From contig NZ_CP118607.1 in the NCBI RefSeq assembly GCF_028898945.1, positions 5,566,001-5,630,000 of the forward strand: a stretch of 64,000 nucleotides of DNA, written 5' to 3'. The first letter of the stretch is position 1. Every line of letters starts with the position of its first letter. This DNA is from Pseudomonas sp. PSKL.D1. Lineage in GTDB: Bacteria; Pseudomonadota; Gammaproteobacteria; Pseudomonadales; Pseudomonadaceae. Positions 25,388 to 60,895 of the stretch are shown here, piece after piece. The notes below the pieces were generated by a model. That model did no database searches. It worked only from the letters and a program-made list of their open reading frames with translations, and was not told the DNA's origin. The position numbers and the translations under genes were made by a program.

Positions 25388-25396
25388 TTTTTGGCC

Positions 25397-25476: not shown

Positions 25477-25495
25477 AAAGGCACTGGAGAACACC

Positions 25496-41346: not shown

Positions 41347-41363
41347 GGCATAGCTCCTTTTGC

Positions 41364-43700: not shown

Positions 43701-43771
43701 GCAGATGCTCCTTGAGGCATGGGCCCTGGCGAGCATTTCCGTTGGCGGAACCGAATCGCGGTCAATCGGGC

Positions 43772-45164: not shown

Positions 45165-46313
45165 TCAGCTGCTCATGGCAGCCTCCTCATGACCTTTCGG
45201 TTTGCGTTGATAAACCTGATCACTTTGCAGCAGTGACCAAATAATGCGCAGATTTCGATTAGCCAGTCTGATCGCCGCCTCCTTGCGCCCAAGGCGGGAT
45301 AGCCAGCGCAAGAGGCGGCGATCATCTGGCTGATCGGAATCAGGCTTTAGCTGACTCAAGACAGCATGCGCGCCTTGAATCATCAAGCTGCGTATGTAGC
45401 CGTCACCTCGCTTGCTCATTCTGCCCAGCCTGATTTTGTTTCCGCTGCTGTGCTGGTCGGGCACGACACCGAAGAAAGCAGAAAACATCCGGCCACTGGC
45501 GAAGCGTGCAGGTTCTGTCTCTTTCGCCACGATCGCCGTGGCGATGATGGGGCCGACACCACGAATGGTGATCAACCGTTGTGCGACCTTATCCTCTTGG
45601 GCTGTCGCTTCGAGCCGCGCACTTAGCGTCGCAATGCGCTCACTCAGAAAGAGCCAGTCAGCTAGCAGTTCATCGAGCAACTCGCGCAACAAATCAGGCA
45701 GGGGCAAGGAGGCATCCTCAAGAGCTCGCGGTACATGTGTACTGATCGCGGTATCACCTTGGGGCATGGATACACCATGCTCAAGCAGCAAGCCACGCAT
45801 CTGATTACCCAGCGCTGTATGTCGCTTGATGTTGCCGCGCCGGATACGGTGCAGCGCCTGAATAGTCAGTGCTGTGGTGCTCTTGACCGGTATCGAGGCG
45901 ATGCTGCTGTCGCGACCAGCGCGCAAAATGGCATGAGCGTCGTTACGGTCGTTCTTGGCGCCACTGCGGTGCTCGGCCACGCGTTGCGCAGGCAGAATGC
46001 GAACCGGATTACCCTTGGCCTGCAGCAACCTGGCCCAGGCTTGCGCACCCGGACCACACTCCATCAAGACAGTTACCGTCACTGGCACCTTGAGTAGGAA
46101 ATCATGGAAAGCCTGTCGGGATTTGATGCGATCTTCGTAGATCACCCGACCGGTAGCATCCTCGCCTGCTAACTGGAAGACCTGTTTGGCCAGGTCTACG
46201 CAGATGGTTGTGCAAAGCTCCACATCAGTGGAAGACAGGGAATCGTGCTTCGAACTATGCTTTTTCATGGTCTCGCCCTCGCTGCCGTTGGCTTCTTCGA
46301 ACGCCACCGTGGC
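45141..46313 (-). mobile_element. IS110-family insertion sequence (minimum extent)
   Basis: Limits given are the outer edges of a candidate subterminal inverted repeat, GCCCCGGTGGC at 45141-45151 and GCCACCGTGGC at 46303-46313 (10 of 11 match), that brackets the transposase gene. The true ends may lie up to about 80 bp further out on the left and 40 bp on the right. No target duplication was found, as expected for IS110. It separates sftR from atsK. Confidence 0.55.
45165..46268 (-). CDS. IS110-family DEDD transposase
   Basis: 367 aa. N-terminal RuvC-like DEDD domain: Asp25 (ICVDLAKQVF), Glu70 (VLMECGPGAQAW), Asp107 and Asp110 (KNDRNDAHA). The C-terminal Transposase_20 domain has a helix-hairpin-helix start (ITIRGVGPIIATAI) and the catalytic-Ser region FFGVVPDQHSSGNKIRLG. 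The frame is intact, so the element may be active. ATG 46268 has GAGGG upstream; the frame is open to 46343. Such enzymes use an IS-encoded bridge RNA to choose targets. Confidence 0.93.
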   Translation of the reverse strand: MKKHSSKHDSLSSTDVELCTTICVDLAKQVFQLAGEDATGRVIYEDRIKSRQAFHDFLLKVPVTVTVLMECGPGAQAWARLLQAKGNPVRILPAQRVAEHRSGAKNDRNDAHAILRAGRDSSIASIPVKSTTALTIQALHRIRRGNIKRHTALGNQMRGLLLEHGVSMPQGDTAISTHVPRALEDASLPLPDLLRELLDELLADWLFLSERIATLSARLEATAQEDKVAQRLITIRGVGPIIATAIVAKETEPARFASGRMFSAFFGVVPDQHSSGNKIRLGRMSKRGDGYIRSLMIQGAHAVLSQLKPDSDQPDDRRLLRWLSRLGRKEAAIRLANRNLRIIWSLLQSDQVYQRKPKGHEEAAMSS

Positions 46314-46356
46314 ACTGTGATGCCTCGGCGGGGGCGAGTCCATCGATTACAAAGGT

Positions 46357-47262
46357 TTACCCTTTACGGGTCGTGATGCTCAGCTGGCCATCCACACCCA
46401 CTGGCACTTCACCGGCCAATGTCACCCGGCGCACCACACGCGGCTGGGTTCCGTAGTCGTCCACGGCGTAGTGCTGGGTTGCCCGGTTGTCCCAGATAGC
46501 CACATCACCCGCTTGCCAGCGCCAGCGCACGGTGTTTTCAAGCCGGGTCACATGGCCTTGCAGCACGGCGAACAGATGCTGCGAATCGGCCAGTGAATAG
46601 CCCTTGATACGCTTCACGAAATGCCCCAGTTGCAGTGCCCGCTCGCCACTGATCGGGTGTACCCGCACCACAGGATGCTCGGTTTCATACACCGTCGAGG
46701 TGAACACCTTGCGATAACGCTCAAGCTTGGCCGGGTCTACATCCGGCTTGAGGCTGGCATAGTCGTACTCGTTGCTGTGTACCGCCCACAGCTTGTCGGC
46801 CAACTCGCGCAGGGGCTCGGGCAATTCGCGATAGGCTGCGGCGGTGTTGGCCCAGACCGTGTCGCCACCCGAGGCCGGCGCCACCACACTGCGCAGGATC
46901 GAAGCCTTGGGGTAGGCGTCGACAAAGGTCACGTCAGTGTGCCAGGAGTTGGCCCGCTGGCCCTCGGCACCGTCCAGTTGCAGCAGGTAACTGGTGCCAT
47001 CCACCACCGGCACGGTGGGGTGTGCCACCGGTTCGCCCAGCAACTTGGCGAAAGCTTCCTGGCTTTGGTCATCCAGATGCGCTTGATCGCGGAAGAAAAT
47101 CACCTTGTGTTCTACCAGCGCCGCCTGGATGGCGTCGATCGTGGCGCTGTCGAGATCAGCGCCCAGTTTCACTCCACGGATTTCGGCACCGATACGGCCG
47201 GCAACCGGGTGGATGTCGAGTTCAACGGTTTGCGGCGCAGTGGCCAATGCGGCATTGCTCAT
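46357..47262 (-). CDS. atsK: 2-Oxoglutarate-dependent alkylsulfatase
   Basis: Fe(II)/2-oxoglutarate dioxygenase that cleaves alkyl sulfate esters to aldehyde and sulfate; 301 aa. Iron ligands His108-X-Asp110 (NSWHTDVTF) and His264 (TQHYAVDDY), 2-oxoglutarate-binding Arg275/Arg279, the same numbering as characterised P. putida AtsK. No Cys, and no Met after the initiator. ATG 47262 follows AGGA. 32 bp after atsR. The IS lies just beyond its stop and leaves the reading frame intact. Confidence 0.95.
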   Translation of the reverse strand: MSNAALATAPQTVELDIHPVAGRIGAEIRGVKLGADLDSATIDAIQAALVEHKVIFFRDQAHLDDQSQEAFAKLLGEPVAHPTVPVVDGTSYLLQLDGAEGQRANSWHTDVTFVDAYPKASILRSVVAPASGGDTVWANTAAAYRELPEPLRELADKLWAVHSNEYDYASLKPDVDPAKLERYRKVFTSTVYETEHPVVRVHPISGERALQLGHFVKRIKGYSLADSQHLFAVLQGHVTRLENTVRWRWQAGDVAIWDNRATQHYAVDDYGTQPRVVRRVTLAGEVPVGVDGQLSITTRKG

Positions 47263-47294
47263 TGCTGTGGTCCTCACGGTCAAATGATGGTGTT

Positions 47295-48329
47295 TCAACG
47301 GGCGGCCTGAGTGGCCTGTTGCTGTTGCAGTGCGGCATCGAGGAAGCGCGGCTCGACCCACTCGGAAACCTTGAAGCTACGGCGGATCAGGCGCTCTTTA
47401 GCTGCCAGGTCCACCCCTTGTTGCAGAAGGCCGATGAATTCGGCGTCCAGCCGCGGATCGAAGTAGTGCGCAAGGTTTTCGCCCGCCAAGTCACCTTCAA
47501 GGATCAGCTTGGGGTAGTTGGCGGTAGTCGCCACCAGGTTTACGTAAGCCTCGCGGTTGCGGTCATCCTGCAGCCAACGGGCAGCTTGCTGCTGGGCGCT
47601 GACCAGGCGAGCGGTAAGGTCGGGGTGCTGACGGATGAAATCGCCAGTGCCCACCAGTACCGCTTGGGTGCTGCCTGCGCCTTTCAGGTCGCGGGAATTG
47701 ACCGGCAACTCGACAAGGCCGCGCTCGCGCAAAGTCAGCAACGTGGACAGGCCCCAGGTGGCGTCGATCTGCTTGGCGGCAATGGCCGCATTGGCAGCGT
47801 TGAAGTCCAGGTTGATGACTTTCAGGTCGCGCTCGCTCAGGCCCTGGCTGGCCAAGGCACTGGCGAACGAGAGCTGGTTGGCGGTGCCGCGGAACACTGC
47901 AACGCGCTTGCCCTTGAGGTCTTGCAGGGTTTTGATGCCCGAGCCCGGCACAACGCCCAGGTAACTCTTGACCCCACGCACCCCGGCCGACAGCACATGC
48001 GTGTCCAGGCCATTGGCCTTGCCGATGATGGCTGCAAGGTCGCCCAGATAGGCAAAGTCCACCTGGCCGTTGGCCAGTGCTTCGTTGATCACTGGCCCGG
48101 CGCCCTTGAAGAAGCGCCAGTCAATGCGGATGCCGTCCTTGGCAAACTCCTTCTCCAGCAGTTGCTGATCGCGCAGCACGTCCACCACCCCCCCGGCGCT
48201 TGGCTTGCTGCCAGCACTCAAGTCGGGCACGGCGATGCGGATGCTTTGCGGCTCGGCGGCCTGGGCGTGTAACGCAATCAGGCCGAACAGGCTGAAGGCA
48301 GTAATCAAGTGACGCAGCGGGGTTTTCAT
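47295..48329 (-). CDS. atsR: Sulfate-ester-binding periplasmic protein
   Basis: SsuA/TauA-type binding protein, 344 aa. Signal peptide about 1-24 (IALHAQA). Segments IRIAVPDLSAGSKPSAGG, GQVDFAYLGDLAAIIGKANG and KGKRVAVFRGTANQLSFASA. No Cys, and no Met after the initiator. Partner of AtsBC, although transcribed away from them together with atsK. Confidence 0.92.
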   Translation of the reverse strand: MKTPLRHLITAFSLFGLIALHAQAAEPQSIRIAVPDLSAGSKPSAGGVVDVLRDQQLLEKEFAKDGIRIDWRFFKGAGPVINEALANGQVDFAYLGDLAAIIGKANGLDTHVLSAGVRGVKSYLGVVPGSGIKTLQDLKGKRVAVFRGTANQLSFASALASQGLSERDLKVINLDFNAANAAIAAKQIDATWGLSTLLTLRERGLVELPVNSRDLKGAGSTQAVLVGTGDFIRQHPDLTARLVSAQQQAARWLQDDRNREAYVNLVATTANYPKLILEGDLAGENLAHYFDPRLDAEFIGLLQQGVDLAAKERLIRRSFKVSEWVEPRFLDAALQQQQATQAAR

Positions 48330-48626: not shown

Positions 48627-50207
48627 ATGAATGGAGTTCTGAGCAGGAATCGAGCGGGGCCGCTGCGCGGCCCATCCGCGACACAAGGCCGCTCCTACAG
48701 ATTCCACGCCGTCATAGTGCCGCTGGCACTCGTAGCGTTGTGGGTAGTGGCCAGCCGGCAGCACTGGATGAGCGAGCAGATCCTGCCGGCACCGTCGCTG
48801 GTCTGGCAAAGCGCCGTGGACTTCGGCTCCGGGGAAATCTGGGGGCATTTGTGGATAAGCCTGCAGCGCTTGTTCTGGGGATTGCTCGCTGGCATCGCCA
48901 GCGGTTTGCTGCTCGGCACCTGGATGGGTAGCTCGCGCCGGGCACAAACGCTGGTGTTGCCCACGTTCGTGGCGCTTGCGCAGATTCCTACGCTGGCCTG
49001 GATCCCCTTGTTCATGCTGTTGTTCGGTATCGGTGAGCTGCTCAAGCTGGTGGTACTGATCAAGGCGGTAGTGGTACCCGTGACGCTACACACCCTGGTG
49101 GGTGTACGAGATGCCCAGCCCAAACTGCGCGAAGCGGCTGCCGTGCTGCGGCTACCGCCCCACCTGCTGTTCCTGCGCCTGCTGCTGCCAGCGGCCCTGC
49201 CCGCCTTCCTTACCGGCGTGCGCCTGGCGCTGGCCACCGGCTGGACCTCGTTGCTGGCGGTCGAACTACTGGCATCCAGTGAAGGCATTGGCTACCTGAT
49301 GGTCTGGGGGCGGCAGCTGTTCATGCTGGATCTGGTGTTCCTGTGCATCATCCTCATCGGCCTGGTGGGCGCGCTGATGGATCGCAGCTTCTCGGTACTT
49401 GAACGGCGCTTGCTGTTGTGGCCACAACCGGCCACCGGCGAACAACGTTTGAGGGCCACCTCCCAAAGCTGGCAGAGCCTCTTGCTGCCATTGGGGCTGC
49501 TGGTGCTATGGCAGACGATCAGCTTTTTCGGCTGGGTAGACCACAATATTCTTACTTCACCCCTGGGCGTACTGCGCGCCCTGCTCGACGGCGTGGCAGA
49601 CGGCTCTTTGCCGCAAGCTCTGCTGTTGAGCCTGCAACGTACCCTGAGTGGCCTGTTGCTGGGCGGTGGTGCGGGCTTGCTCATAGGGCTGTGGCTGGGC
49701 CTTTCCCGAAACGCTGAACGGGTGTTGGGGCCAAGCCTGTCTGCATTACGCCAGGTGGCTCTGTTCGCCTGGGTGCCACTACTGACGGCATGGTTTGGTC
49801 TGGGGGAAGGCGCCAAACTGGTGTTCGTTGGCATGGCGGCGTTCTTCCCGTTGTTGATCGCCACCCAGCGCGGTATCGCCAGCCTGTCACCACAGCTGGG
49901 CGAGGCCGCGCAGGCATTGCGCCTGAACCTGGCGCAACGCCTGCGCCTGCTGGTGCTACCCGGTGCCGCGCCAGCAATCTTCGCCGGCCTTCGCCTGTCG
50001 CTGATCTATGCCTGGCTGGGCACCATCGGTGCCGAATACTTCATGCCCTCTGACGGCGGCATCGCCAGCCTGATGCTCGGTGCCCAGCAACTGTTCCGCA
50101 TGGATCAGGTCATGGCCGCCATGGTGCTGATCGGCTTGGTCGGCGCCCTGCTCGGCAACCTTGGACAACGCCTCGAATCGCGCGCCACGCGCTGGAGAAC
50201 CGCATGA
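48627..50207 (+). CDS. atsB: Tandem-fused ABC permease for sulfate esters
   Basis: 526 aa containing two SsuC-like permease halves. Half one has the EAA loop KLREAAAVLRLPPHLLFLRLLLPAALPAFLTG (about residues 165-195); half two has LGEAAQALRLNLAQRLRLLVLPGAAPAIFAG (about 425-455). SsuC/TauC are single-domain and dimerise, so one AtsB may form the whole channel. ATG 48627 has GAGAGA 6-7 nt upstream. Codons about 9-25 coincide with a REP sequence. Coupled to atsC through ATGA. Confidence 0.91.
   Translation: MNGVLSRNRAGPLRGPSATQGRSYRFHAVIVPLALVALWVVASRQHWMSEQILPAPSLVWQSAVDFGSGEIWGHLWISLQRLFWGLLAGIASGLLLGTWMGSSRRAQTLVLPTFVALAQIPTLAWIPLFMLLFGIGELLKLVVLIKAVVVPVTLHTLVGVRDAQPKLREAAAVLRLPPHLLFLRLLLPAALPAFLTGVRLALATGWTSLLAVELLASSEGIGYLMVWGRQLFMLDLVFLCIILIGLVGALMDRSFSVLERRLLLWPQPATGEQRLRATSQSWQSLLLPLGLLVLWQTISFFGWVDHNILTSPLGVLRALLDGVADGSLPQALLLSLQRTLSGLLLGGGAGLLIGLWLGLSRNAERVLGPSLSALRQVALFAWVPLLTAWFGLGEGAKLVFVGMAAFFPLLIATQRGIASLSPQLGEAAQALRLNLAQRLRLLVLPGAAPAIFAGLRLSLIYAWLGTIGAEYFMPSDGGIASLMLGAQQLFRMDQVMAAMVLIGLVGALLGNLGQRLESRATRWRTA
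48655..48700. repeat. REP-like element inside the 5' end of atsB
   Basis: Hairpin GGGCCGC-TGC-GCGGCCC followed by ATCCGCGACACAAGGCCGCT and CCTACAG, a typical P. putida REP layout. It is translated as the hydrophilic stretch after residue 9 of AtsB, before the first TM segment. Confidence 0.7.
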
Positions 50208-51067
50208 ACGCCTTCATCACCTCGGCCCTGCAGGCGGCCAATCAACCCGATGCCACCCCTGCGCTGGTCAGTTTCGAGAACGTCGGTAAAACCTTCAGTG
50301 TCGATGGCCAGGCATTCGAAGCCCTTCGGGGTTTTGACCTGTCGATCAATCAGGGTGAGTTCATTGCCATCGTCGGTGCCTCGGGCTGCGGCAAGTCCAC
50401 GCTGCTGCGCCTACTGGTGGGGCTGGACACCGACTACAGCGGCACCATCAAGGTCGATGGCCAACCGGTGACAGGCATCGGCGGCGAACGCGGCATCGTG
50501 TTTCAGGAGCACCGCCTGTTCCCTTGGCTGACTGTTGAACAGAACATCGCGCTTGGGCTGGTGAACGAGCCACTGACACAAGGCGAACGTGCCCGCCGGG
50601 TGCATGAGTATGTGCAGCTGGTCGGCCTGGTGGGTTTCGAATCGGCTTACCCGCATCAGCTTTCGGGCGGCATGGCCCAGCGGGTGGCCATCGCCCGCGG
50701 GCTGGTCGCCAGCCCGCGCATCCTGCTGCTGGACGAACCTTTTGGTGCCCTGGACGCCTTGACCCGCCAGCAATTGCAGGACGAGTTGCTGGCCATTCGC
50801 GAGCGCGCAGGCATAACCACGCTGCTGGTGACTCACGATGCTGAAGAGGCCACCTACCTGGCCGACCGCGTGGTAGTGCTGGAGCCTCGCCCCGGGCGCA
50901 TCAAGAGCGTGGTGGAAATCGACTTGCCTCACCCGCGCAGACGTACGGGCGTGGCGCTACACGGTTTGCGCGAGCGGGTGCTGCAACAGATAACCGGTGA
51001 ACAACCCCACCTGAAACCGCAGGCCTCCAGGGTGGAAGGCCTGCGGCCAGAGCTGATCGCTCTTTAG
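50204..51067 (+). CDS. atsC: ABC transporter ATPase for sulfate esters
   Basis: 287 aa. Walker A GASGCGKST near residue 62, Q-loop IVFQEHRLFPWLTV, signature QLSGGMAQRVAIARGL, Walker [18 protein letters not shown]-loop LLVTHDAEEATY. SsuB/TauB family, coupled to atsB. It ends 3 bp from the stop of the convergent toxin-like gene, with no terminator seen between them. Confidence 0.94.
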   Translation: MNAFITSALQAANQPDATPALVSFENVGKTFSVDGQAFEALRGFDLSINQGEFIAIVGASGCGKSTLLRLLVGLDTDYSGTIKVDGQPVTGIGGERGIVFQEHRLFPWLTVEQNIALGLVNEPLTQGERARRVHEYVQLVGLVGFESAYPHQLSGGMAQRVAIARGLVASPRILLLDEPFGALDALTRQQLQDELLAIRERAGITTLLVTHDAEEATYLADRVVVLEPRPGRIKSVVEIDLPHPRRRTGVALHGLRERVLQQITGEQPHLKPQASRVEGLRPELIAL

Positions 51068-51070
51068 CCT

Positions 51071-53599
51071 TTACGGCCACTGATCAGCCGGGAAAAACCG
51101 CTCGAGCCAAGGCGGGTTGCCCACCAGGTCTGCGTAGGCCGAGCGCTCGAACGGTTGCCCGCTGCGCATCTCGAAGGCGGGTTCATCGGCCCGCCGCGGC
51201 TGCTCACGGAGCCTGAACTTGATGAAGCGGTAGTGCTGCCCCTGAACGTCATGGATGTCATCAATACGGAAAGTGCTACCCGGCGTGAACAGCACTTCCG
51301 CTTCCTGCCAGTTCAATGACAAAGGCGCTACCGGGGCGCCGCTTAGCTGCTCGCTGCCCACCACCTCATAAAGCACGGTGTTCTCATCAAAATGCCCGGC
51401 CACCTCGGCGAGAGGGCGGGCAGCGGCCTCCTTGGGCAACATGAACCGGCGGGGGATGTAAGGGTTTTCGGTGAAGGATGTGATATCGGTGGCGACCAAC
51501 AGGTCGCCTACCCGGATCGCACCCGCCCGATAGCGTGCCCCAAGCCCCACGCGCTCGCCACGCCCACCACGCCAGAGCAATGAAGCCCGGCTGCCCGGCA
51601 ATCGCGCCAGCGAGTCGGCCAAAGTCCCGATAAAGTCATTGAGGGTTTCGTCCGTAAACCCCTGCAGGCGCGAGCGATCACCCCGGAATACATCATTCAC
51701 CCTGGCCATGTGGCTGCTGTACTCCATAGCAAGGTCATTGTGCAGCTCACCTTCCTGGCTGAAGGTGTGGAAGCGCTGCCCCTGCACCTCAACATAATGG
51801 TGACCGAACTCATCCACAGGGGCCATGTGGCCAGCGAATGTCGGTAGCCCCGCGCGCTCCAGCAAGCGCGTCTGACGCTGCAACAGGGCAACTGAAAGCC
51901 GGTCTTCCATGGCCCGGTCGGGTTCCATGTAGGTGTCCCAGAATTGGGTAGTCAGGCCATCGGTATCACCGCCCGGTGCATACAGCCGCCATTGTCCGTC
52001 CAGGCCTCGGCGCACCAGCAAGCTTTCACGGATTTCCAGGTCGTCGAGATCACTCAACACCATCCAGCTGGACCAGCGGCTGTTGAAGTGGACCGGCAGG
52101 TTCATCTCACCCATGGCGATCCAGCTGCGGCCTTGGTCATCAACATGCACGCCCTGCAGAGGCCCTGAAGTGCGCGCAGGCACCACGGTAACCAGGTTGC
52201 TGTCGAGGTCTGCGAGCACTTGCCTGATCCTCCCGGATGAGCGCGCAGGCTCCAGCAGCGTTGCCAGTACCCCGCTGAAGTGGGGTGGTTCCCGGTAACT
52301 CAAGGCCTTGAGACCAAGCCCGACATCCACCAGCGCGAATGCACTGACCAGGGAGTCACCAATGGAAGCAAGAATGGCCTGAGTGCGCTCGGGTGCCGAG
52401 CGAGCTCGCACCGCGCCCTCAATGTCCAACCCCAGCCGTGCCAAGCCGGCACCCAGCATCGCCAGGCCAATCGGCCAGGCCATTAGCGAAAAACCACCAA
52501 ACACCTGGATGAATGCCCCCAGGTATCCGCGCCAGAGCTGCTTGCGCAGGTCGCTATTACTGACCAGATTGTGCAAGGTCAGGCCGAGGTCGGCCTTCAC
52601 CCATAGCATCAGGCTGTCGAACAGATCAGGGAGGATGAGCGCCTGGCCCTCACCAAATGGCCATTCGGGGCTGGAGTACGAGCCACTTTGCTGACGGGCC
52701 TTCTGCAGGGCGGCGGCTCGCCAGTACGGGTCCGATTGCGCGTCCATTCGGTACAGCGTGCTGAGCCAGCTTTGCGCATCCGTATCGCGTAGTCGATTGG
52801 ACAGCCAGCGGATCATTGCACGCCGATCCTCGAATGCCCGCAAGGGCGACGCCATCGACGGCATGTAGACCACTAGCCTGCCAGACGCATGCTGGAAGGT
52901 CACCAAATGGCCCTTACCGAGCTGGAAATGGCGCACGGTCAACGTTGGCTGATGCCCGGAATACGTCAGCGCTGCCAGTGTAAGCGGTGCTCCCGCTTGC
53001 AGGCCCATCCAGGCTCTCAGGTTCTGCCGATCTACTTCAGCCAACAGGCCTCCCTCAACAGCCCGATCAATGTCGGCGAGGAAGCAGGCGCGGGCCAGCG
53101 CCGGAAAATCCAGGCCCTCCGCCCCCCAAAATCGCGCTTCGCGTTGGCTCACTTCAGATGCGAAGTCCAGTTGCCACAGGTAATCCATGACGTCCTTGGG
53201 TAGCAAGGCCACCTCATTGTTGGCACCGTATCGCTCGGCATCGAGCCCCTGATTGTAGAAGCCGCTGTAGACAGGCAGGGTGTCGGGCTCGGCCTGAAAG
53301 CCGCCGCCAAACCGGTGAATCAGCAGGTCGGTAAAACGTAGTGAACGGGTTGGTGGGCCGGCGTGCTGCCAACCGGTAACAGTCGGTGCGTTGGATGCCG
53401 TGGTGAACACGTGCCACCAGACCTTGTCCGGGTCCAAAGGCTTGCCGGTGTGTTCAAGCAGGTAGGCGGCCGCATGCTCGTGAGCCAGTTTATAGGGGTC
53501 GGGCCAAGCGCCCAGGAAGGCACGGGCCTTTTCCATGACGGCACGGGCATCACCCAGCGACGCCAGGCTACGGGCGAAATGATCGAGATCCAGGGGCAC
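51071..53599 (-). CDS. DUF6543-like large protein with C-terminal ADP-ribosyltransferase motifs
   Basis: 842 aa, GTG start with AGAGGA 8 nt upstream. The N-terminal part resembles the dermonecrotic-toxin-like DUF6543 proteins of pseudomonads, including a central hydrophobic stretch (about 358-390) that could enter a membrane. The C-terminal 170 residues carry the three R-S-E ADP-ribosyltransferase elements in order: Arg677 in SLLWRGGRG, T707-Ser708 in ATDITSFTENP, and Glu766-X-Glu768 in WQEAEVLFTPGSTFRI. No signal peptide and no immunity gene or secretion genes nearby. Toxin role is inference; the domain match was made by eye. Confidence 0.7.
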   Translation of the reverse strand: MPLDLDHFARSLASLGDARAVMEKARAFLGAWPDPYKLAHEHAAAYLLEHTGKPLDPDKVWWHVFTTASNAPTVTGWQHAGPPTRSLRFTDLLIHRFGGGFQAEPDTLPVYSGFYNQGLDAERYGANNEVALLPKDVMDYLWQLDFASEVSQREARFWGAEGLDFPALARACFLADIDRAVEGGLLAEVDRQNLRAWMGLQAGAPLTLAALTYSGHQPTLTVRHFQLGKGHLVTFQHASGRLVVYMPSMASPLRAFEDRRAMIRWLSNRLRDTDAQSWLSTLYRMDAQSDPYWRAAALQKARQQSGSYSSPEWPFGEGQALILPDLFDSLMLWVKADLGLTLHNLVSNSDLRKQLWRGYLGAFIQVFGGFSLMAWPIGLAMLGAGLARLGLDIEGAVRARSAPERTQAILASIGDSLVSAFALVDVGLGLKALSYREPPHFSGVLATLLEPARSSGRIRQVLADLDSNLVTVVPARTSGPLQGVHVDDQGRSWIAMGEMNLPVHFNSRWSSWMVLSDLDDLEIRESLLVRRGLDGQWRLYAPGGDTDGLTTQFWDTYMEPDRAMEDRLSVALLQRQTRLLERAGLPTFAGHMAPVDEFGHHYVEVQGQRFHTFSQEGELHNDLAMEYSSHMARVNDVFRGDRSRLQGFTDETLNDFIGTLADSLARLPGSRASLLWRGGRGERVGLGARYRAGAIRVGDLLVATDITSFTENPYIPRRFMLPKEAAARPLAEVAGHFDENTVLYEVVGSEQLSGAPVAPLSLNWQEAEVLFTPGSTFRIDDIHDVQGQHYRFIKFRLREQPRRADEPAFEMRSGQPFERSAYADLVGNPPWLERFFPADQWP

Positions 53600-53683: not shown

Positions 53684-53959
53684 TCAACTCAGCCCGCGCA
53701 GGTAGCCCCACGGGTAGATACCGCGGTCATGGCCATCGCTGAACACCAGCTGCACGCCATAGCCTTGCACGACGATACGCTCGACGCGCACGCCATCCAC
53801 CACCACGCCAATCGCCCCCTTGAGCAGTGCGGCACGGCACTGCGAGCACGGGCAGGCGCCACGCAAGCGGGTATGACTAAGCTGTTGCAGCCCCTCGGGC
53901 CACTGCACCTTCAATTCACCTCGATCACGCTCGTTGTGCAAAGCGACAGGGGCAGTCAT
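53684..53959 (-). CDS. DUF971 (GBBH-like N-terminal) domain protein
   Basis: 91 aa. Contains the domain's Cys-rich loop LRGACPCSQC (Cys36, 38, 41) and ends YPWGYLRGLS, as in PF06155 domains, which occur alone, in gamma-butyrobetaine hydroxylase, and in the plant [4Fe-4S] factor HCF101. The ATG overlaps the stop of the HEAT gene. Last gene of the eight-gene operon. Function unknown; the HCF101 link makes a metal or Fe-S role possible. Confidence 0.83.
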   Translation of the reverse strand: MTAPVALHNERDRGELKVQWPEGLQQLSHTRLRGACPCSQCRAALLKGAIGVVVDGVRVERIVVQGYGVQLVFSDGHDRGIYPWGYLRGLS

Positions 53960-54924
53960 CACTGGGCGCCCTGCAACTGCGCCAAGGCGATTCTCACTGC
54001 CTTGCGTACCTCCGGGTCGCTGTCGGCCTGCGCCTGTTCCAATGCGGGCAGGGCCTGGGCCACGCCCAGTTCGCCCAGCGCCAGCGCAGCCTCCTTGCGA
54101 AGGTTGGCAATGCCATGCCCGAGCAAGTCGGCCAGCGCCTGCAACGCTGCAACATGGCGCAGGCGGCCAAGCGCGCGGGCAGCACGCAGGCGCACCTGCC
54201 AGAAGGGGTCGCCCAAGGCCTTGATCAACGCCGCGCCCGCTGCTTGCTGGCTGATTTTGCCCAGGGTAGTGGCAGCTTCTTCGCGCACCTGCCATGCCGC
54301 ATCATCCAGTGCACCGATCAACGCGGGCAGCACGCTGTCATCACGGGCCAACCCCAAAGCGCCGATGGCGGCGCGGCGCACTTCGGTGTCCGGCTCACTG
54401 GCAGCAAGGCGTGCCAGCACCGGCAAAGCTGGCGCGTGCTTGAGCCAACCCAGTACGCCCACGGCCTCACGACGTACAGAGGCATCCGGGTCTTCCAGTG
54501 CCGCCAGCGCCGGGGCCGCAGCCTCTTCAAGGCGCAGTTCGCGCAAGGCACGCAGGGTGCTTGCGCGTACAAACGCTTCGGCGTGGGCCACCCATGGCAA
54601 GACCAATAGCCCGGTTTCCTGGCTCTTGATCTCGCTCAGACTCTGCGCAGCCGCGGTACGCACCGCCACTGCAGGGTCGGCCAAGGCTGCGCATAGTGCC
54701 TGGATCACTTCTGGATCCTCCCAGGCTTCGAGAAGCCGCGCTGCCTCTTCACGCACCCCTTCAGCAGCGTCGACAAGCAGCGCGTCGGTCAGCCAGGGCA
54801 GGCCCTGCGGCTCTTCCAGGTCGGCCAGTTCGATCAGGGCAATGCGCCGCACTCCGGCATCGGCATCCCCCAAACGGGGCAGTAAATCGATGATGTCGGG
54901 GTGGTCGGTGTTTCGTTCAGTCAT
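53959..54924 (-). CDS. HEAT-repeat (PBS-lyase-like) protein
   Basis: 321 aa made almost wholly of about nine HEAT-like repeats of some 31 residues, for example DPDASVRREAVGVLGWLKHAPALPVLARLAASEPDTEVRRAAIGALG read in two successive units. No catalytic motif. Such repeats are scaffolds for protein-protein contact or, in PBS lyases, for chromophore attachment. Coupled to the genes on both sides by overlapping start and stop codons, so it is an integral operon member. Role unknown. Confidence 0.87.
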   Translation of the reverse strand: MTERNTDHPDIIDLLPRLGDADAGVRRIALIELADLEEPQGLPWLTDALLVDAAEGVREEAARLLEAWEDPEVIQALCAALADPAVAVRTAAAQSLSEIKSQETGLLVLPWVAHAEAFVRASTLRALRELRLEEAAAPALAALEDPDASVRREAVGVLGWLKHAPALPVLARLAASEPDTEVRRAAIGALGLARDDSVLPALIGALDDAAWQVREEAATTLGKISQQAAGAALIKALGDPFWQVRLRAARALGRLRHVAALQALADLLGHGIANLRKEAALALGELGVAQALPALEQAQADSDPEVRKAVRIALAQLQGAQ

Positions 54925-55778
54925 AGCGCAATCCTTAGAGGGGGGTGGTCAGAGTCCGGCAGGCCGAGCGGGGTCAGGCGCGGCAATTCGCGGCCCTCTT
55001 CGTGGCGCAGCAGGGCCAGGCAGTGACGCTTGAGATGGGTGAATGCCGGGCTGGTCAACAGGCTCGCTTGGCGAGGCCGCGCAAAGTCCACTTGCAGCTC
55101 TTCGATGAAGCGGCCCGGGCGCGGGCCCATCACCAATATGCGGTCGGCAAGAAACAGCGCCTCGTCGATGTCATGGGTGACAAACACCACGGTGGTGTGG
55201 ATGCGTGCCCAGATATCCAGCAACATTTCCTGCATCCGCGAGCGGGTTTGCGCATCAAGTGCGCCAAACGGCTCGTCCATGAGCAACAGCCGGGGCCGAT
55301 TGATCAGTACACGGGCAATTTCGGCGCGCTGCTGCATGCCACCAGAAAGCTGGCTCGGCCAGCGGCCAGCGAAGGCGGACAGGCCGACCAGGCGCAGCAT
55401 TTCTGCCGCCTGCTGCTCACGCTCGGCTTTGCCCAGGCCCTGCATCTTCAGCCCGAAGGCGACGTTGTCGAGCACACTGCGCCACGGCAGCAACGTATGG
55501 TGCTGGAACACCATGCCGCGCTGGGGTGACGGGCCAACGATGGCCTCGCCATCCACGCTCAGCTGCCCGGCACTGGGCACCAGATGCCCGGCCAGCGCGC
55601 CAAGCAAAGTGGACTTGCCACAGCCGGACGGGCCAAGGATGCACACGAACTCACCGGGGGCCACGTCGAAGTCCAGGCGTTGCACGGCTTCGAACGCTTC
55701 ATCCCCCGCTCCCAGGTGAATCGAAACGCCGCGCCCTTCGATCCGCCCGGTTGCCGGGGCCTGTTGATAACTGCTCAT
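54921..55778 (-). CDS. ABC transporter ATPase (SsuB/NrtD-like), unassigned substrate
   Basis: 285 aa. Walker A GPSGCGKST near residues 48-56, Q-loop MVFQHHTLLPWRSV, signature QLSGGMQQRAEIARVL (second half deviates slightly from RVAIARAL), Walker [18 protein letters not shown]-loop VFVTHDIDEALF. ATG 55778 overlaps the permease stop; the longer frame to 56063 lies inside the permease gene. Confidence 0.9.
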   Translation of the reverse strand: MSSYQQAPATGRIEGRGVSIHLGAGDEAFEAVQRLDFDVAPGEFVCILGPSGCGKSTLLGALAGHLVPSAGQLSVDGEAIVGPSPQRGMVFQHHTLLPWRSVLDNVAFGLKMQGLGKAEREQQAAEMLRLVGLSAFAGRWPSQLSGGMQQRAEIARVLINRPRLLLMDEPFGALDAQTRSRMQEMLLDIWARIHTTVVFVTHDIDEALFLADRILVMGPRPGRFIEELQVDFARPRQASLLTSPAFTHLKRHCLALLRHEEGRELPRLTPLGLPDSDHPPLRIAL

Positions 55779-56560
55779 CAGGTGGCCCTCCGCACGCGGT
55801 ACCACGGCGTTGCCAGCGCCCCCAGGCGCTTGATCAAGGCGCTGCTGCCCATGCCCATTACACCGATCAACAGCATGCCGACAATGATGTCGGGGTAGTT
55901 CTGCAAGGTGTAGGACTCCCAGGTGTAGTAACCAATACCGAACTGCCCGGAGATCATTTCGGCGGTGACCAGGCAAAACCAGGATGTCCCCATGCCGATG
56001 GCCAACCCCGTGACGATGCTCGGCAGTGCGCCGGGCAACACCACCTCGCGCAGAATTGCCCAACGCCCTGCGCCCAGGCTGCGGGCAGAGGCCACCAGCC
56101 TTGGGTCCACCGCCTCAACGCCATGAACGGTGTTGAGCAGGATCGGGAAAAGCGCGCCAGTGAAGGTAATGAAAACCATCGACAGCTCCGAAGATGGGAA
56201 CATCAGGATCGCCAGCGGAATCCACGCCACAGCCGGGATTGGCCGCAACACTTCCAATGGCGGCAGCAGCGTGTCTTCTGCCCACTTCGAGCGGCCGATC
56301 AGCACGCCCAACGCCACGCCCAACAGCGCCGCGCCGACGTAACCGGCAAATACCCGGCCGAGGCTGCTGCCCAAATGCGCCAGCAAGGTGCTGGAGTTGA
56401 GCAACTGCCAGGCTGCACCCACTACCGCTGACGGCGTGGGCACATAGGTGAAGGTGAACAGGCCGAAGTCGAGTTTCGCGCTGGCTGCCACCTGCCAGAA
56501 CAGCAGGCAGGCAAGCAGCGAGGCAACACGCACGGGCCAGCGCGTGAAATCACGGGTCAT
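55778..56560 (-). CDS. ABC transporter permease (SsuC/NrtB-like), unassigned substrate
   Basis: 260 aa, about six TM segments. EAA loop [34 protein letters not shown] 56560 has GGAGG 8 nt upstream, 16 bp after the binding-protein stop. Confidence 0.9.
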   Translation of the reverse strand: MTRDFTRWPVRVASLLACLLFWQVAASAKLDFGLFTFTYVPTPSAVVGAAWQLLNSSTLLAHLGSSLGRVFAGYVGAALLGVALGVLIGRSKWAEDTLLPPLEVLRPIPAVAWIPLAILMFPSSELSMVFITFTGALFPILLNTVHGVEAVDPRLVASARSLGAGRWAILREVVLPGALPSIVTGLAIGMGTSWFCLVTAEMISGQFGIGYYTWESYTLQNYPDIIVGMLLIGVMGMGSSALIKRLGALATPWYRVRRAT

Positions 56561-56576
56561 GGCGATTGCCTCCAGG

Positions 56577-57983
56577 TCAGCGCTGGGCGACCAGTTTCCG
56601 GTTAGCGCTGACGAAGTCCAACGCCTCTCCACCATGTGCCTTGGCGTATTGTTCGGCCTGGTCCTTCAACAGGAAGGCGGCCAGCTCCCCCTTGGCGTTG
56701 CGCACGAACCATGCCTGGTTGGCCAGCAACTTGATGCCACTGTCGGCGGCCTGGGCGTAGATGGCGCGGATGTCCTTGCCTTCCTGCTCCAGCTGCGCCA
56801 ATGCACCAAGGGCTGCTTCCGGGGTGGTGTAGTGGCGAACCTTGTATTCGCCACGCACCCAGATTTGCGCCAGGCGGCTGAAGTCGGTGATGGGTTTGCC
56901 CGTCAGTGCGTCGGTGGCGGTCAGAGGCTGCGGGGCGTAGTTCTTCAGCGCCTTGTCATAATCCTGCCCAGCTTGCTTGAAGGCTGCACGTATGTACTGG
57001 TCATCGATGAACACGCTGGTATCAAGCCCGCGATCGGTCTTTTTGAGCAACTTGAGGGTATCGATCGACGTCGCAACAGCCTGGCGGTATTCAGGTTTCC
57101 AGGTCAGGTCTCGGGTCTGCAGGCCCAGCGGCCCGTGGAACAGGTAGTTGACCTCGGCTTCGATGCCGGTGACCTTCTCGATCAGCTCGCTGTACTTTTC
57201 AGGCTCGGCCGCTATCAGGCGGTCAGCCTCCAGGCTGGCGCGCAGGTAGGCGGTGACCACTTCCGGGTACTTTTTCGCATAGTTGGCATCGACCAGCGCG
57301 CCGTGGAACGTCGGGGCGTTGGCTTGGGCACCGTCATAAATCTTGCGGGCGAAGCCGCGGTTGGGAAACAGTTCGGCAAACGGCACAAAGTCGGCATGGG
57401 CTTCTATACGATTGCTGCGTAGGGCCGAACCTGCAATTTCCGGTGCCTGGGCAATGATGCGCACGTCTTTTTGCGGGTCCCAGCCTTGGGCTGCAATAGC
57501 GCGCAGCAACATGCCGTGGGCAGTGGAGGCAAACGGCACGGAAATGGTCTTGCCCTTGAGCTCACCCAGCGACTGCACGCTGGAGGCAGCGGGCACCACA
57601 ATGCCATTGCCGCTGCCATGCACGCTGCCCGACAGCACGCTGATGAACAGGCTGCGTTTGCCGGCGTCCAGATGGGCCACGCCGTTGAACGAACCCGGGA
57701 AGTCCGCCATGGCGCCGAAATCCAGCTTGCCGGCGACCATTTCGTTGGTCAGGGGCGCGCCACTGGTGAAGTTCTTCCATTCAATCTGGTACTTGGCGTC
57801 CTTGTACTTGCCATCATGCGGCAGGTACTTGTCCAGCAGGCCCAGTTCACGAATCAGCAGGCCACCGGTGGCGCAGTTGATGGTGGTGTCCTGGGTGCCG
57901 ATGGCAATGCGGATGGTTTCGGCGTTGGCGTGCAGGCCAGCGAGCGCCAGCGCGAGGCCGGCCACGGTTGTTGCAAGGCGCAT
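56577..57983 (-). CDS. ABC transporter substrate-binding protein (SsuA/NrtA-like), unassigned substrate
   Basis: 468 aa, clearly longer than SsuA or TauA (about 320). Signal peptide about 1-22 (LAGLHANA). Segments IRIAIGTQDTTINCATGGLL, GKLDFGAMADFPGSFNG and ELKGKTISVPFASTAHGMLL. It contains one Cys and three internal Met, unlike the sulfur-free binding proteins elsewhere in the window. The extra C-terminal part (from about residue 330) has no recognisable domain. ATG 57983 follows GGGGA. Confidence 0.87.
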   Translation of the reverse strand: MRLATTVAGLALALAGLHANAETIRIAIGTQDTTINCATGGLLIRELGLLDKYLPHDGKYKDAKYQIEWKNFTSGAPLTNEMVAGKLDFGAMADFPGSFNGVAHLDAGKRSLFISVLSGSVHGSGNGIVVPAASSVQSLGELKGKTISVPFASTAHGMLLRAIAAQGWDPQKDVRIIAQAPEIAGSALRSNRIEAHADFVPFAELFPNRGFARKIYDGAQANAPTFHGALVDANYAKKYPEVVTAYLRASLEADRLIAAEPEKYSELIEKVTGIEAEVNYLFHGPLGLQTRDLTWKPEYRQAVATSIDTLKLLKKTDRGLDTSVFIDDQYIRAAFKQAGQDYDKALKNYAPQPLTATDALTGKPITDFSRLAQIWVRGEYKVRHYTTPEAALGALAQLEQEGKDIRAIYAQAADSGIKLLANQAWFVRNAKGELAAFLLKDQAEQYAKAHGGEALDFVSANRKLVAQR

Positions 57984-58103
57984 GGGTGGTTCCCCTCGAA
58001 TCGTTTTGAGTATTGGAATCGTCTCCGCCACCAGGATGGGGTGGTGGGAAACGAGGGGCATTGCAGGCGGGCGTCCGGTGGTTCGCCGGATGGCTTGGGT
58101 GGT

Positions 58104-58349
58104 TCAGCGCAGCAGGTACGGGATGTCGACTTTCACGGCGCCGGTGGGGCAATCCTTTTCGCAGGGCATGCAGTACCAGCATTCGTCAAAGGCCATGTAG
58201 GCCTTCTGCGTGGCCGGGTTGATGGCCAGCAGGTCCATGGGGCATACCTCAACGCATACGGTGCAGCCTTTGTCAGCGATGCATTTGTCTTCGTCGATGG
58301 TGACCGGAGCGCTGCTGCGAAAGAATATTTCCTGGGGTTGGTAGGCCAT
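58104..58349 (-). CDS. 8-Cys (2x[4Fe-4S]) ferredoxin, AprB-like
   Basis: 81 aa. Two cluster motifs: Cys23-X5-Cys29-X2-Cys32-X3-Cys36-Pro and Cys57-X2-Cys60-X2-Cys63-X3-Cys67-Pro. It matches the N-terminal ferredoxin part of adenylylsulfate reductase beta subunit (AprB) in layout but lacks the AprB C-terminal tail. Located 38 bp after the flavoprotein gene, it is the probable electron partner of that protein. Confidence 0.9.
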   Translation of the reverse strand: MAYQPQEIFFRSSAPVTIDEDKCIADKGCTVCVEVCPMDLLAINPATQKAYMAFDECWYCMPCEKDCPTGAVKVDIPYLLR

Positions 58350-58387
58350 TTCACGGTGTCCTTGGGGCCTTTGGCCCTCTGTTCTGT

Positions 58388-60112
58388 TCAGGCAGCGTTG
58401 GCTTTGACGCGCAGCCGGTCATAGGCGGTCTGTTCTTCGGTATCCAGGGCAATCAGATAGGGCTCGACTGCTTTCTTGAAGCTGGTCATTTCGCCGTTTT
58501 CACCCTTTTTCAGGTGGCAATGGCAAAACCAGTCGGCGTCGTTACGCTCGGGGAAGTCCACCCGATGGTGATACAGGCCCCAGCGGCTTTCTTCACGGAA
58601 CAACGAGGCCCGTGCTGCCATCTCGGCGCAATCGCGGATCACCGCCACTTCCATCGCCCGCATCAGTTCATGCGGGTTGTTTGCTTTCATCTGCTCAAGA
58701 TCGCGCTCGATTTCGGCAAAGCGCGCCAGGCCGATTTCCATCTTTTTGGTGACCTTGGGTGGCTGCAGGTAATCGTTGACCATGCGTCGCAGCTTGTACT
58801 CGACCTGAGCGGGCGGCAGGCCGTGTTCGCGCCGCAGCGGTGCAAATACCCGCTCACGCTCACGTTCCACCTGCACCACATCAACCTCGGCATGTTCCCG
58901 ATCCGCCACATAGCGCGCGGCGTTTACACCCGCAAACCAGCCGTAGGTGAATGCACCCAGCATGTAGTTGTGCGGCACGGCGGCCATGTCGCCCGCGGCG
59001 TACAAGCCCTTGACGCTGGTCTCGGCCTTTTCGTTGACCCACACCCCCGAAGCGGAATGCCCGGAGCAGAAGCCAATTTCGGAGATGTGCATCTCGACCA
59101 TGTGCTGGCGGTAATCGGTACCGCGGCCTGCATGGAACTGCCCACGGCTGGGGCGCTCGTTGCTGTGCAGGATCTCTTCGATGTTCTGGATGGTTTCCTC
59201 GGCCAGGTGGTCGAGTTTGAGGAACAACGGGCCATTGCCACCTTCGAGTTCCTGATGGAACTCCCACATCATCTGCCCGCTCCAGTAATCGCACTCGATA
59301 AAGCGCTCACCCTTGCTGTTGGCCGTATAGCCGCCCAGCGGGCCGGTCACGTAAGCACAGGCGGGGCCGTTGTAGTCCTTGATCAACGGGTTGATCTGGA
59401 AGCACTCCAGGTTGGCCAGCTCGGCACCCGCGTGGTAGGCCATGGCATAGCCGTCACCCGCGTTGGTGGGGTTTTCGTAGGTACCCATCAGGTAACCCGA
59501 CGATGGCAAGCCCAGCCGCCCGGCGGCGCCGCAGGCAAGGATCACCGCTTTGGCCCGCACCACACGAAACTCTCCGGTGCGGCAATCAAAGCCCATTACA
59601 CCAGCGGCGGCGCCTTGGTCATCGAGCAGTATGCGGGTGCAGACCATGCGGTTGCTGATCTCGATACGCGCACGCTTGAGCTGGCGGTAAAGCACTTTCT
59701 TGATGTCATGGCCTTCAGGCATGGGCAGCACGTAGGCGCCCATGTGGTGGACTTTCTTCACGGCGTAATCGCCGGTTTCGTCTTTCTCGAACTTCACGCC
59801 CCAGCGGTCGAGCTGTTCGATGGTTTCAAAGCTGTGGGTGGCATACGCATGCACGGCAGCCTGGTTGACGATGCCGTCGTTGGCCACGGTGATTTCCTTG
59901 GTGTACTGCTCAGGCGTTGCGTGGCCGGGGATGATCGCGTTGTTCAGGCCGTCCATGCCCATGCTGATAGCACCGCTGCGCTTGACGTTGGCCTTGTCCA
60001 GCACCAGCACGCGCAGGGCCTTGTCCTGCTCCTTGGCCTTGATCGCCGCCATCGGCCCGGCCGTGCCGCCACCGATGACGATGATGTCGTAGTCCTGGGT
60101 TTCGAAGCTCAT
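58388..60112 (-). CDS. FAD flavoprotein, fumarate reductase / AprA-like
   Basis: 574 aa, cytoplasmic. FAD-binding GGGTAG at residues 14-19, followed by Lys-rich and KRSGAISMGMDG, central NAGDGYAMAYHAGAELANLECFQ, and the second FAD motif GLYAAGDMA. Resembles the alpha subunit of adenylylsulfate reductase and related fumarate-reductase-like enzymes, with a His in GFCSGHSASGVWV near the flavin. Rich in Cys and Met. ATG overlaps the GntR stop. Substrate unknown; with the ferredoxin and importer it may reduce or oxidise the imported compound. Confidence 0.82.
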   Translation of the reverse strand: MSFETQDYDIIVIGGGTAGPMAAIKAKEQDKALRVLVLDKANVKRSGAISMGMDGLNNAIIPGHATPEQYTKEITVANDGIVNQAAVHAYATHSFETIEQLDRWGVKFEKDETGDYAVKKVHHMGAYVLPMPEGHDIKKVLYRQLKRARIEISNRMVCTRILLDDQGAAAGVMGFDCRTGEFRVVRAKAVILACGAAGRLGLPSSGYLMGTYENPTNAGDGYAMAYHAGAELANLECFQINPLIKDYNGPACAYVTGPLGGYTANSKGERFIECDYWSGQMMWEFHQELEGGNGPLFLKLDHLAEETIQNIEEILHSNERPSRGQFHAGRGTDYRQHMVEMHISEIGFCSGHSASGVWVNEKAETSVKGLYAAGDMAAVPHNYMLGAFTYGWFAGVNAARYVADREHAEVDVVQVERERERVFAPLRREHGLPPAQVEYKLRRMVNDYLQPPKVTKKMEIGLARFAEIERDLEQMKANNPHELMRAMEVAVIRDCAEMAARASLFREESRWGLYHHRVDFPERNDADWFCHCHLKKGENGEMTSFKKAVEPYLIALDTEEQTAYDRLRVKANAA

Positions 60113-60858
60113 GCCTTGCCCCCTTTGTGGCGGTCGATGCGCAGGCGGTACTGGAAGGCATCGCCGCGGTAATAGAGGTGTTCGAAGTCCAGCGGCGCGC
60201 CGTCGGCGGTGTGAGTGAGGCGTTCGATACGCATGATCGGCGAGCCCTCCTCCACCTCCAGCGCCTGGGTCAGGTCGCTGTCGGCCAATACCGCATCGAT
60301 GGCCAGGTCGGCGTGGCCAAGCGGGATGCCACAGTCGTTTTCCAGCAGCAGGAAGATGTCGCGGGTCACCAGGTCGGCCTTTTCCAGCTTTTCGCCGACG
60401 GCCTTGGGCAGCCAGGTCAATTCCAGGGACACCGGCTCGCGATTGATCAGGCGCACCCGGCGTATTTCGGTCACCAGGGTACCCTCCTCGACCTGCAACC
60501 GCGCCGCCACCAGGGCGTTGGCCGGTACGTGACGGAAGCTGCGCAGGCGGTTGAGCACTTCGTAGCCCATTTGCGTCATCGACTCACCCAGCCCCTGCAA
60601 GGTGCTGACGTTCTGGAACGCCTTGGGTTTGGCGACGAACGTGCCTTTGCCATGGATCTTGAACACCAGCCCTTCTTTCTGCAGGTCGCCCAGTGCCTGG
60701 CGCACGGTGATGCGGCTCACGTCGAAAGCCTTGCCCAGCTCACTCTCGGAGGGCATGCGGCTGTGGGGTGGGTAGGTGCCATCAAGAATGCGCTCGCGCA
60801 GCAGTTCCTTGAGCTGGGTGTAGAGCGGTACCGGGGACAAGGGGAGCAGTTCGGCCAT
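60109..60858 (-). CDS. GntR/HutC-family regulator
   Basis: 249 aa. N-terminal winged helix (about 10-75: PLYTQLKELLRERILDGTYPP ... SRITVRQALGDLQKEGLV) and a C-terminal UTRA effector domain (about 95-240). First gene of the operon, with its stop overlapping the flavoprotein start. A perfect palindrome just upstream suggests autoregulation. The effector is likely the imported substrate or a product of it. Confidence 0.92.
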   Translation of the reverse strand: MAELLPLSPVPLYTQLKELLRERILDGTYPPHSRMPSESELGKAFDVSRITVRQALGDLQKEGLVFKIHGKGTFVAKPKAFQNVSTLQGLGESMTQMGYEVLNRLRSFRHVPANALVAARLQVEEGTLVTEIRRVRLINREPVSLELTWLPKAVGEKLEKADLVTRDIFLLLENDCGIPLGHADLAIDAVLADSDLTQALEVEEGSPIMRIERLTHTADGAPLDFEHLYYRGDAFQYRLRIDRHKGGKA

Positions 60859-60879: not shown

Positions 60880-60895
60880 ACTTGTTATAACAAGT
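60880..60895. promoter_or_regulatory. Perfect palindrome, candidate GntR operator
   Basis: ACTTGTTATAACAAGT is a 16-bp perfect palindrome with the GT..AC core typical of GntR-family sites, 21 bp upstream of the regulator ATG. It contains a possible -10 (TTATAA), so binding could block transcription of the whole operon. Confidence 0.68.

Follow-up and report, generated by a model that had tools for sequence, protein, structure and literature searches.

Gene content and layout of the operon

We analyzed a window of 64,000 nucleotides from Pseudomonas sp. PSKL.D1 (contig NZ_CP118607.1, positions 5,566,001 to 5,630,000; "the window" is this whole stretch), and within it an eight-gene operon at positions 53684-60858 that lies on the minus strand throughout, with boundaries read from the sequence. 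A preliminary description of this DNA had placed eight genes here on that strand, had named their families, and had proposed that they act as one unit that may import and process an anion or an organosulfur compound. Place, number and strand were confirmed from the sequence, and the named families were borne out by Pfam and NCBIfam, giving the following features, in which FAD stands for flavin adenine dinucleotide, ABC for ATP-binding cassette, and APS and PAPS for adenylylsulfate and 3'-phosphoadenylylsulfate:

60880..60895, no strand: perfect palindrome ACTTGTTATAACAAGT, probable GntR operator, 21 base pairs (bp) upstream of the GntR start
60109..60858, minus strand: GntR family regulator of the HutC/UTRA type (Pfam PF00392 and PF07702)
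58388..60112, minus strand: FAD flavoprotein of the PRK08275/NF006131 family, a distant sister to the alpha subunits of APS/PAPS reductases (NF006131, 1137.7 bits; best structure 8a8o; residues; tree)
58104..58349, minus strand: 2x[4Fe-4S] ferredoxin of 81 amino acids, without the AprB tail (PF12838 and others)
56577..57983, minus strand: SsuA/TauA-type (NMT1) periplasmic binding protein whose C-terminal domain is NosL-like (PF13379/PF09084)
55778..56560, minus strand: ABC importer permease of the SsuC/TauC/NtrB kind (PF00528)
54921..55778, minus strand: ABC importer ATPase of the TauB/SsuB kind (PF00005; TauB 255.8 bits, under the cut-off of 357)
53959..54924, minus strand: HEAT-repeat protein, homologue of the C-terminal half of fused PRK13800 flavoproteins (PF13646; NF010374)
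53684..53959, minus strand: DUF971 (GBBH-like_N) protein with CxCxxC and GHxxGxYxW (PF06155, 67.1 bits)

Four of the junctions overlap (GntR/flavoprotein and ATPase/HEAT by ATGA, permease/ATPase and HEAT/DUF971 by TGATG), and a fifth, between binding protein and permease, leaves a gap of 16 bp, in line with the five overlapping or nearly overlapping junctions reported earlier; two longer gaps, of 38 bp between flavoprotein and ferredoxin and of 120 bp between ferredoxin and binding protein, are present besides. The tight clustering, the probable operator of the operon's own and the conserved synteny described below all favor the proposal that the genes act as one unit. A scan for promoters and terminators gave no more matches than shuffles did, and the sole match of an Rfam scan was a tRNA upstream of the operon. 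In the Pfam/NCBIfam, NosL and solved-structure comparisons, the query proteins carried extra N-terminal residues for the binding protein (2), the permease (1) and the DUF971 protein (9).

The flavoprotein and its relation to APS reductase

The flavoprotein exceeds the NF006131 cut-off of 587 bits, the next-best profile being PRK13800 (NF010374), a flavoprotein-HEAT fusion, which it matches with 873.9 bits, below the cut-off of 1196. Its closest solved structure is 8a8o, the PAPS reductase alpha subunit from Methanothermococcus thermolithotrophicus (E 4.6e-66 with the single sequence and 5.5e-78 with a seven-sequence profile), followed by APS reductase. An AlphaFold model (mean predicted local distance difference test 52.6, predicted template modeling score 0.53) was unfit for fold comparison. 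The flavoprotein matches the alpha subunits of APS reductase (AprAB) and of 8a8o over nearly their full length and, like them, has a small iron-sulfur partner, and it keeps N57 and H352 at the positions of AprA N74 and H398, H352 being kept also by the dicarboxylate types. Unlike them, it carries Leu, Tyr and Glu in place of R265, W234 and Y95, has an inserted segment (residues 120-132) and falls into a separate clade; its partners differ as well, being a ferredoxin short of the AprB tail and the importer, HEAT and DUF971 proteins. A further likeness is to a plasmid locus of Ilyobacter polytropus (L183), where a flavoprotein adjoins a small ferredoxin in an assimilatory setting; that locus, an APS-reductase-like one in which cysC and cysD flank the AprA-like flavoprotein and ferredoxin genes, differs in its position among sulfate activation genes, in keeping R265 and W234, and in its identity of 27%.

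For the tree and the alignment, the comparators were profile matches from 200 genomes, the annotated AprA of L183, two proteins of the source genome and a TcuA-like protein; those other than L183 were classed by motif and tree place. Neither the tree nor the residue counts include L175. In the resulting 35-protein tree, the flavoprotein family forms one clade (support 87/98) that is sister to the AprA clade (100/99) and lies outside it, although the branch joining the two has a support of 93/70, is not starred and carries a long-branch warning. L243, Y212, E73 and QINPL are present in 12 of 12 rows of the family. R265 and W234, which we take to be substrate residues of AprA (with numbers, likewise assumed, counted along the alignment of 1jnr), are kept in all 9 AprA-type rows, one of which is an annotated AprA and the others placed by motif and tree. 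HPT, presumably the substrate motif of the fumarate reductase and succinate dehydrogenase flavoproteins, is found in 13 of 13 comparators of the succinate dehydrogenase, fumarate reductase or aspartate oxidase type, where the 12 family rows have NPL.

Given these three distinct pockets, the flavoprotein fits neither AprA nor the dicarboxylate enzymes. We therefore rejected its identification as an APS reductase alpha subunit, considering its AprA (TIGR02061) score of 193.8 bits against a cut-off of 641.75, the replacement of R265 and W234, and its place outside the AprA clade; the earlier characterization as AprA-like yet not AprA was upheld. An ordinary flavoprotein of the fumarate reductase/succinate dehydrogenase type, as the source database names have it and as the Pfam matches PF00890 and PF02910 would permit, is highly improbable and was rejected as well, as NPL replaces HPT and the tree groups the family with the AprA clade. 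A tree had been put forward in the preliminary description as a check on its view, and here the enzyme comes out beside AprA and outside the characterized clades, which leaves that view standing. The pocket stretch QINPL(I/M)KDYNG is invariant in the 12 family rows, which suggests that the flavoprotein has a substrate of its own. Judged by its sequence, it is an enzyme family distinct from these, found without a described function in the literature searched; likewise, no paper describing the eight-gene set was found in a search made largely without subscription journals.

Partner proteins and importer

The ferredoxin had been said to lack the tail of AprB, and indeed it covers only positions 3-64 of the 132 of the AprB profile (TIGR02060), without the long C-terminal tail, and scores 35 bits against a cut-off of 135.65; its identification as an APS reductase beta subunit was rejected on these grounds. 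The HEAT protein matches the HEAT half of the NF010374 profile (613-896, 80 bits). The DUF971 protein exceeds the PF06155 gathering score of 22.8 bits and has a solved relative, 3luu, and among its 97 operon relatives 91 carry CxCxxC and 89 carry the GH motif.

The closest solved structures to the binding protein are TauA (6ssy) and SsuA (2x26), and it lies below the NCBIfam cut-offs of both (SsuA_fam, 105.4 bits against 163.5; TauA, 78.1 against 304.25), while the permease is under the cut-off of all 24 NCBIfam families that it matched. The importer is thus of the same superfamily as those of TauABCD and SsuABC, and a tauABCD set lies in the same window; unlike these, it stays under the tau and ssu cut-offs, has a NosL-like domain on its binding protein and is joined to a flavoprotein-ferredoxin pair. 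Scores of the binding proteins against NosL (PF05573, gathering score 24) were 17.1 for the window, 19.6 for Acinetobacter, 16.9 for Sinorhizobium and 24.1 for Pseudanabaena, with none reported for Tsukamurella; the paired Cys of this domain occur in part of the binding-protein family only.

Conservation and synteny

Of 124 loci gathered, 13 were dropped from the counts for short flanks, leaving 111, in which the presence of genes was scored by tblastn of seeds at thresholds chosen in this analysis. Eighty of the loci are the best 80 of 593 and comprise Pseudomonas, Burkholderiales, Acinetobacter and few others, so that the sample is uneven and weighted to Pseudomonas and Burkholderiales; actinobacteria and cyanobacteria are represented by plasmid records and protein matches. 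Flavoprotein, ferredoxin and HEAT protein occurred together and on one strand in all 111 loci, and none of the eight operon genes reached the threshold in 40 control stretches taken from ten genomes that carry the operon. Conserved co-occurrence, the other check put forward beforehand, therefore also speaks for a unit (111/111 loci against 0/40 controls). Near this core we found the GntR gene in 89, the DUF971 gene in 88 and the binding protein gene in 87 of the 111 loci. Synteny is kept in Pseudomonadota and also in the plasmid loci of cyanobacteria and actinobacteria that were seen. The operon is a real, widespread and conserved unit.

The flavoprotein family is widespread but patchy, as its rates across genome samples indicate: members were found in 13 of 200 genomes drawn from the phylum (at least 1058 bits, the next protein scoring 218), in 10 of 149 from the family, 10 of 150 from the order, 5 of 274 from the own class (own genome included) and 4 of 289 from the class of another genome, G143. 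In the source genome, the next matches to the flavoprotein score 94 and 44 bits, against 1336 for itself. Among plasmid records, 55 match it with E values no higher than 1e-30; these include a few partial matches and one annotated APS reductase.

Gene order varies among the loci. In many gamma- and betaproteobacteria the importer lies between ferredoxin and HEAT protein; in alphaproteobacterial loci the DUF971 gene, where found, precedes the flavoprotein or is divergent from it; and three cyanobacterial loci have an Mrp/NBP35 gene after the HEAT gene, no DUF971 domain being found in the two cyanobacterial Mrp/NBP35 proteins scanned. In the actinobacterial relatives seen (L106 among them), flavoprotein and HEAT part form a single fused chain. 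This PRK13800 (NF010374) fusion has the same two parts, and in Tsukamurella the same kinds of importer and ferredoxin adjoin it, the difference being that flavoprotein and HEAT protein are separate genes in the window. Two plasmids carry additional genes. In Acidithiobacillus caldus pTcM1 (L005:10102-14035), genes for FdxA and for a FAD-dependent oxidoreductase of 1153 amino acids come after the core; the oxidoreductase has a partial Pyr_redox_2 match only and a relative in L149. In Nostoc pNe_5 (L104:10713-13894), genes for HAD hydrolases, a methyltransferase, a GNAT protein and a VOC protein lie between flavoprotein and ferredoxin.

A candidate operator upstream of the GntR gene

The regulator itself is below the cut-off for all NCBIfam families among the 25 matches listed. 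The palindrome ACTTGTTATAACAAGT upstream of it is perfect over its 16 bases. With up to 2 mismatches allowed, it occurs once in the window and never in 100 shuffles of the window, and its 14-base core, at up to 1 mismatch, is found at a single site in the 5.88-megabase genome. Of 93 loci with a GntR gene, 77 have, no more than 160 bp upstream, a site that agrees with the core at 12 or more of its 14 bases; no such site was found in the other 16, which include several from Caballeronia and an actinobacterial locus. Being unique in the genome and kept upstream of GntR genes, the palindrome is a candidate operator through which the regulator most likely controls its own operon only. In two cyanobacterial plasmids, LysR regulators encoded beside the core (L102:6652-8652 and L103:6403-8439) have at their C-terminus a domain like the NMT1/SsuA binding proteins, whose match exceeds the Pfam cut-off in L103 and falls short of it in L102. 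This suggests a ligand common to regulator and importer in these two loci.

Sulfur genes in the window and near related operons

A scan of window genes, independent of the seeds used for the neighborhoods below as far as the tau and sfn genes are concerned, returned the following features outside the operon:

14661-18184: tauABCD (over NCBIfam cut-offs, TauA over one of two)
24146-26677: two SfnB genes (over NCBIfam cut-offs)
26677-28059: NtaA/DmoA monooxygenase of the luciferase-like monooxygenase (LLM) kind (over the NCBIfam cut-off)
39670-41661, minus strand: arylsulfotransferase (PF05935, 419 bits)
45165-46343, minus strand: IS110-family transposase, inside the organosulfur region and adjoining the TauD-like gene
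46357-47361: TauD-like dioxygenase (window gene scan)
47295-48329: NMT1 binding protein (window gene scan)
48627-51067, permease 48627-50207 on the plus strand: ATPase and SsuC-like permease, the latter double, with two permease matches within a single chain

The window has a high density of organosulfur genes. No sat or dsr gene was seen among the window genes scanned, which were a part of those present, in agreement with what had been said of them before.

Several kinds of sulfur genes recur near related operons. TauE/SafE or YeiH exporters were found in 8 of the 111 loci, in one of which, from Aquabacterium (L159), the exporter is directly upstream of the GntR gene; TauD and Fpr-like ferredoxin-NADP reductases were each near 10 cores, and LLM monooxygenases near 6. 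A family 2A encapsulin shell, its cysteine desulfurase cargo and CysE were found in 6 loci each, within about 10 kilobases of the operon in L066, L067, L073, L090, L092 and L094 (Burkholderiales and Acinetobacter), these counts resting on one representative of each that was identified by library. An encapsulin survey describes the association with cysteine desulfurase and serine O-acetyltransferase (PMC8346489). In Rhodococcus, a fused relative bears the source name "Putative reductase (alkanesulfonate metabolism)". Taken together, any of nine kinds of sulfur-gene seed occurred in 26 of 111 loci and in 1 of 40 controls (one YeiH), a contrast that is suggestive rather than a fair test, since eight of the nine kinds were picked after viewing the loci (the ninth, TauD, came from the window) and the count of 26 is therefore biased upward.

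A possible role in organosulfur scavenging

We put the chances at about even that the operon serves the scavenging of organosulfur, in which ferredoxin-driven FAD chemistry would act on an imported sulfonate-like compound and probably yield sulfite. The gene context speaks for a sulfur role; the substrate class, the reductive direction and sulfite as the product are what we infer. The GntR regulator would control its own operon through the palindrome and be released by a ligand. The ABC importer would bring in a small sulfonate-like anion, as the kinship of its binding protein to SsuA and TauA indicates. The ferredoxin would be reduced by NADPH through a ferredoxin-NADP reductase, such as is encoded near the core in some relatives, and would then reduce the cytoplasmic FAD enzyme, which may attack the sulfur group and free sulfite, the known product of PAPS and APS reductases. 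This sulfite would enter cysteine synthesis or, when in excess, be exported. The HEAT protein may be a structural or assembly partner of the flavoprotein, because both form one chain in actinobacterial relatives, and the DUF971 protein probably helps to load or keep iron-sulfur clusters, the cyanobacterial loci having the iron-sulfur carrier Mrp/NBP35 instead. The organosulfur direction of the preliminary description is backed by the neighborhood genes, and its interpretation as a whole is partly supported.

Several points weigh against organosulfur scavenging. In 85 of the 111 loci, no sulfur seed of the nine kinds was found within the stretch examined, the post hoc choice of seeds tells in the same direction, and in one locus (L109) genes for thiC, thiO, thiS and thiazole synthase lie nearby. 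With R265 and W234 replaced by L243 and Y212, the sulfur chemistry of APS reductase cannot simply carry over. A binding protein of this kind was under the threshold in the stretch examined in 24 of 111 loci, the Pseudomonas loci L020, L023 and L025 among them, so that the core of enzyme, ferredoxin and HEAT protein can occur without an adjacent importer. The term "fumarate reductase", or "flavoprotein" for this enzyme, is absent from the accessible parts of three actinobacterial sulfur studies (PMC8557817, PMC7661421, PMC11852219). Neither expression nor mutant data on the gene set were found in the literature searched. There is also a ferredoxin of Pseudomonas putida, PP_0206, that may be the operon ferredoxin. 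A zinc study of that species gives PP_0206 as raised 7.5-8.5 fold (PMC6066579). Such induction would fit a metal or oxidative role equally well.

A system of this latter sort would have the NosL-like and the zinc-finger-like DUF971 domains handle copper or zinc, with flavoprotein and ferredoxin protecting or repairing iron-sulfur enzymes. The NosL-like C-terminal domain of the binding protein, the CxCxxC of the DUF971 protein, the presence of FdxA near 14 of 111 cores and the zinc induction, as far as PP_0206 is the same ferredoxin, can all be read this way. We nevertheless consider a metal or redox-stress system improbable, as the NosL match in the window is below the cut-off and the paired Cys are confined to part of the family, and as no metal-resistance family was seen among the 13 scanned representatives of the 70 listed neighbor clusters (members of three more clusters were also scanned by library).

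The scarcity of sulfur seeds and the thiamine genes of locus L109 also speak for an importer that takes up another NMT1-type substrate, such as a pyrimidine precursor, a nitrate-like anion or other, with the sulfur neighborhood being incidental. In its favor, too, NMT1 binding proteins serve several substrates, and the regulator is of the HutC type. This explanation seems to us quite unlikely, given the density of sulfur genes in the window, the recurrence of sulfite exporters, CysE and cysteine desulfurase in separate lineages, and TauA and SsuA as the closest solved binding proteins.

Among described systems, asfRABC of Pseudomonas putida S-313 resembles the operon in combining a reductase-ferredoxin pair with a binding protein and an ABC importer, there for the use of aromatic sulfonates (PMC4267179), and differs in having a LysR regulator instead of a GntR regulator. 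In Cupriavidus metallidurans CH34, asfRAB is placed on the second replicon, CHR2 (PMC2864759). On CHR2 we found no close relative of the operon flavoprotein, the best match having 57.6 bits and 30% identity, so AsfA there very likely belongs to another family. The identification of the flavoprotein as AsfA, to which the source name in Rhodococcus had pointed, is disfavored on this indirect ground, which rests on the published placement of asfRAB. At an interpolated place on CHR2 we observed a LysR gene and a frame resembling a transposase, together with a flavoprotein and an iron-sulfur protein judged by eye to be kin of TcuA/TcuB.

In a review (PMC4267179), the asf reductase and ferredoxin are given the role of feeding a monooxygenase, and the operon could by analogy be an electron-transfer module for oxygenolytic desulfonation, in which flavoprotein and ferredoxin would feed a separate monooxygenase of the SsuD/DmoA/SfnG kind. 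The LLM monooxygenases near 6 of 111 cores, and the one in the window at 26677-28059, are consistent with such a module. We regard it as unlikely, since with the seeds used the other 105 cores have no LLM monooxygenase nearby, the invariant pocket suggests that the flavoprotein has a substrate of its own, and the CH34 replicon with asfRAB has no close relative of it.

Known aerobic routes of sulfonate desulfurization mostly use oxygen. In its most far-reaching form, organosulfur scavenging by this operon would mean that aerobes possess a new class of desulfonating enzyme that is assimilatory and independent of oxygen: a FAD enzyme driven by ferredoxin, of APS/PAPS reductase stock with a rebuilt pocket and a dedicated HEAT partner, common to proteobacteria, cyanobacteria and actinobacteria, that would release sulfite reductively from a stable sulfonate or a related organosulfur compound. 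We offer this form tentatively and hold it to be a doubtful, though real, possibility. If the organosulfur reading is true, a conserved operon of three phyla adds a step to the sulfur cycle of soil and freshwater, and the name "fumarate reductase/succinate dehydrogenase flavoprotein", which many members bear in their source, would need correction. The Pseudomonas relatives make the operon easily testable.

Other features of the window

The arylsulfotransferase gene lies beside a gene for a TonB-dependent receptor (39670-43736 for the two, minus strand), and the two possibly allow aryl sulfates to be taken up and used. At 51071-53599 on the minus strand, in the interval that separates the operon from the sulfonate-type importer, a protein of 842 amino acids is encoded that matches ToxA_N, the N-terminal domain of dermonecrotic toxin, with 146.9 bits.

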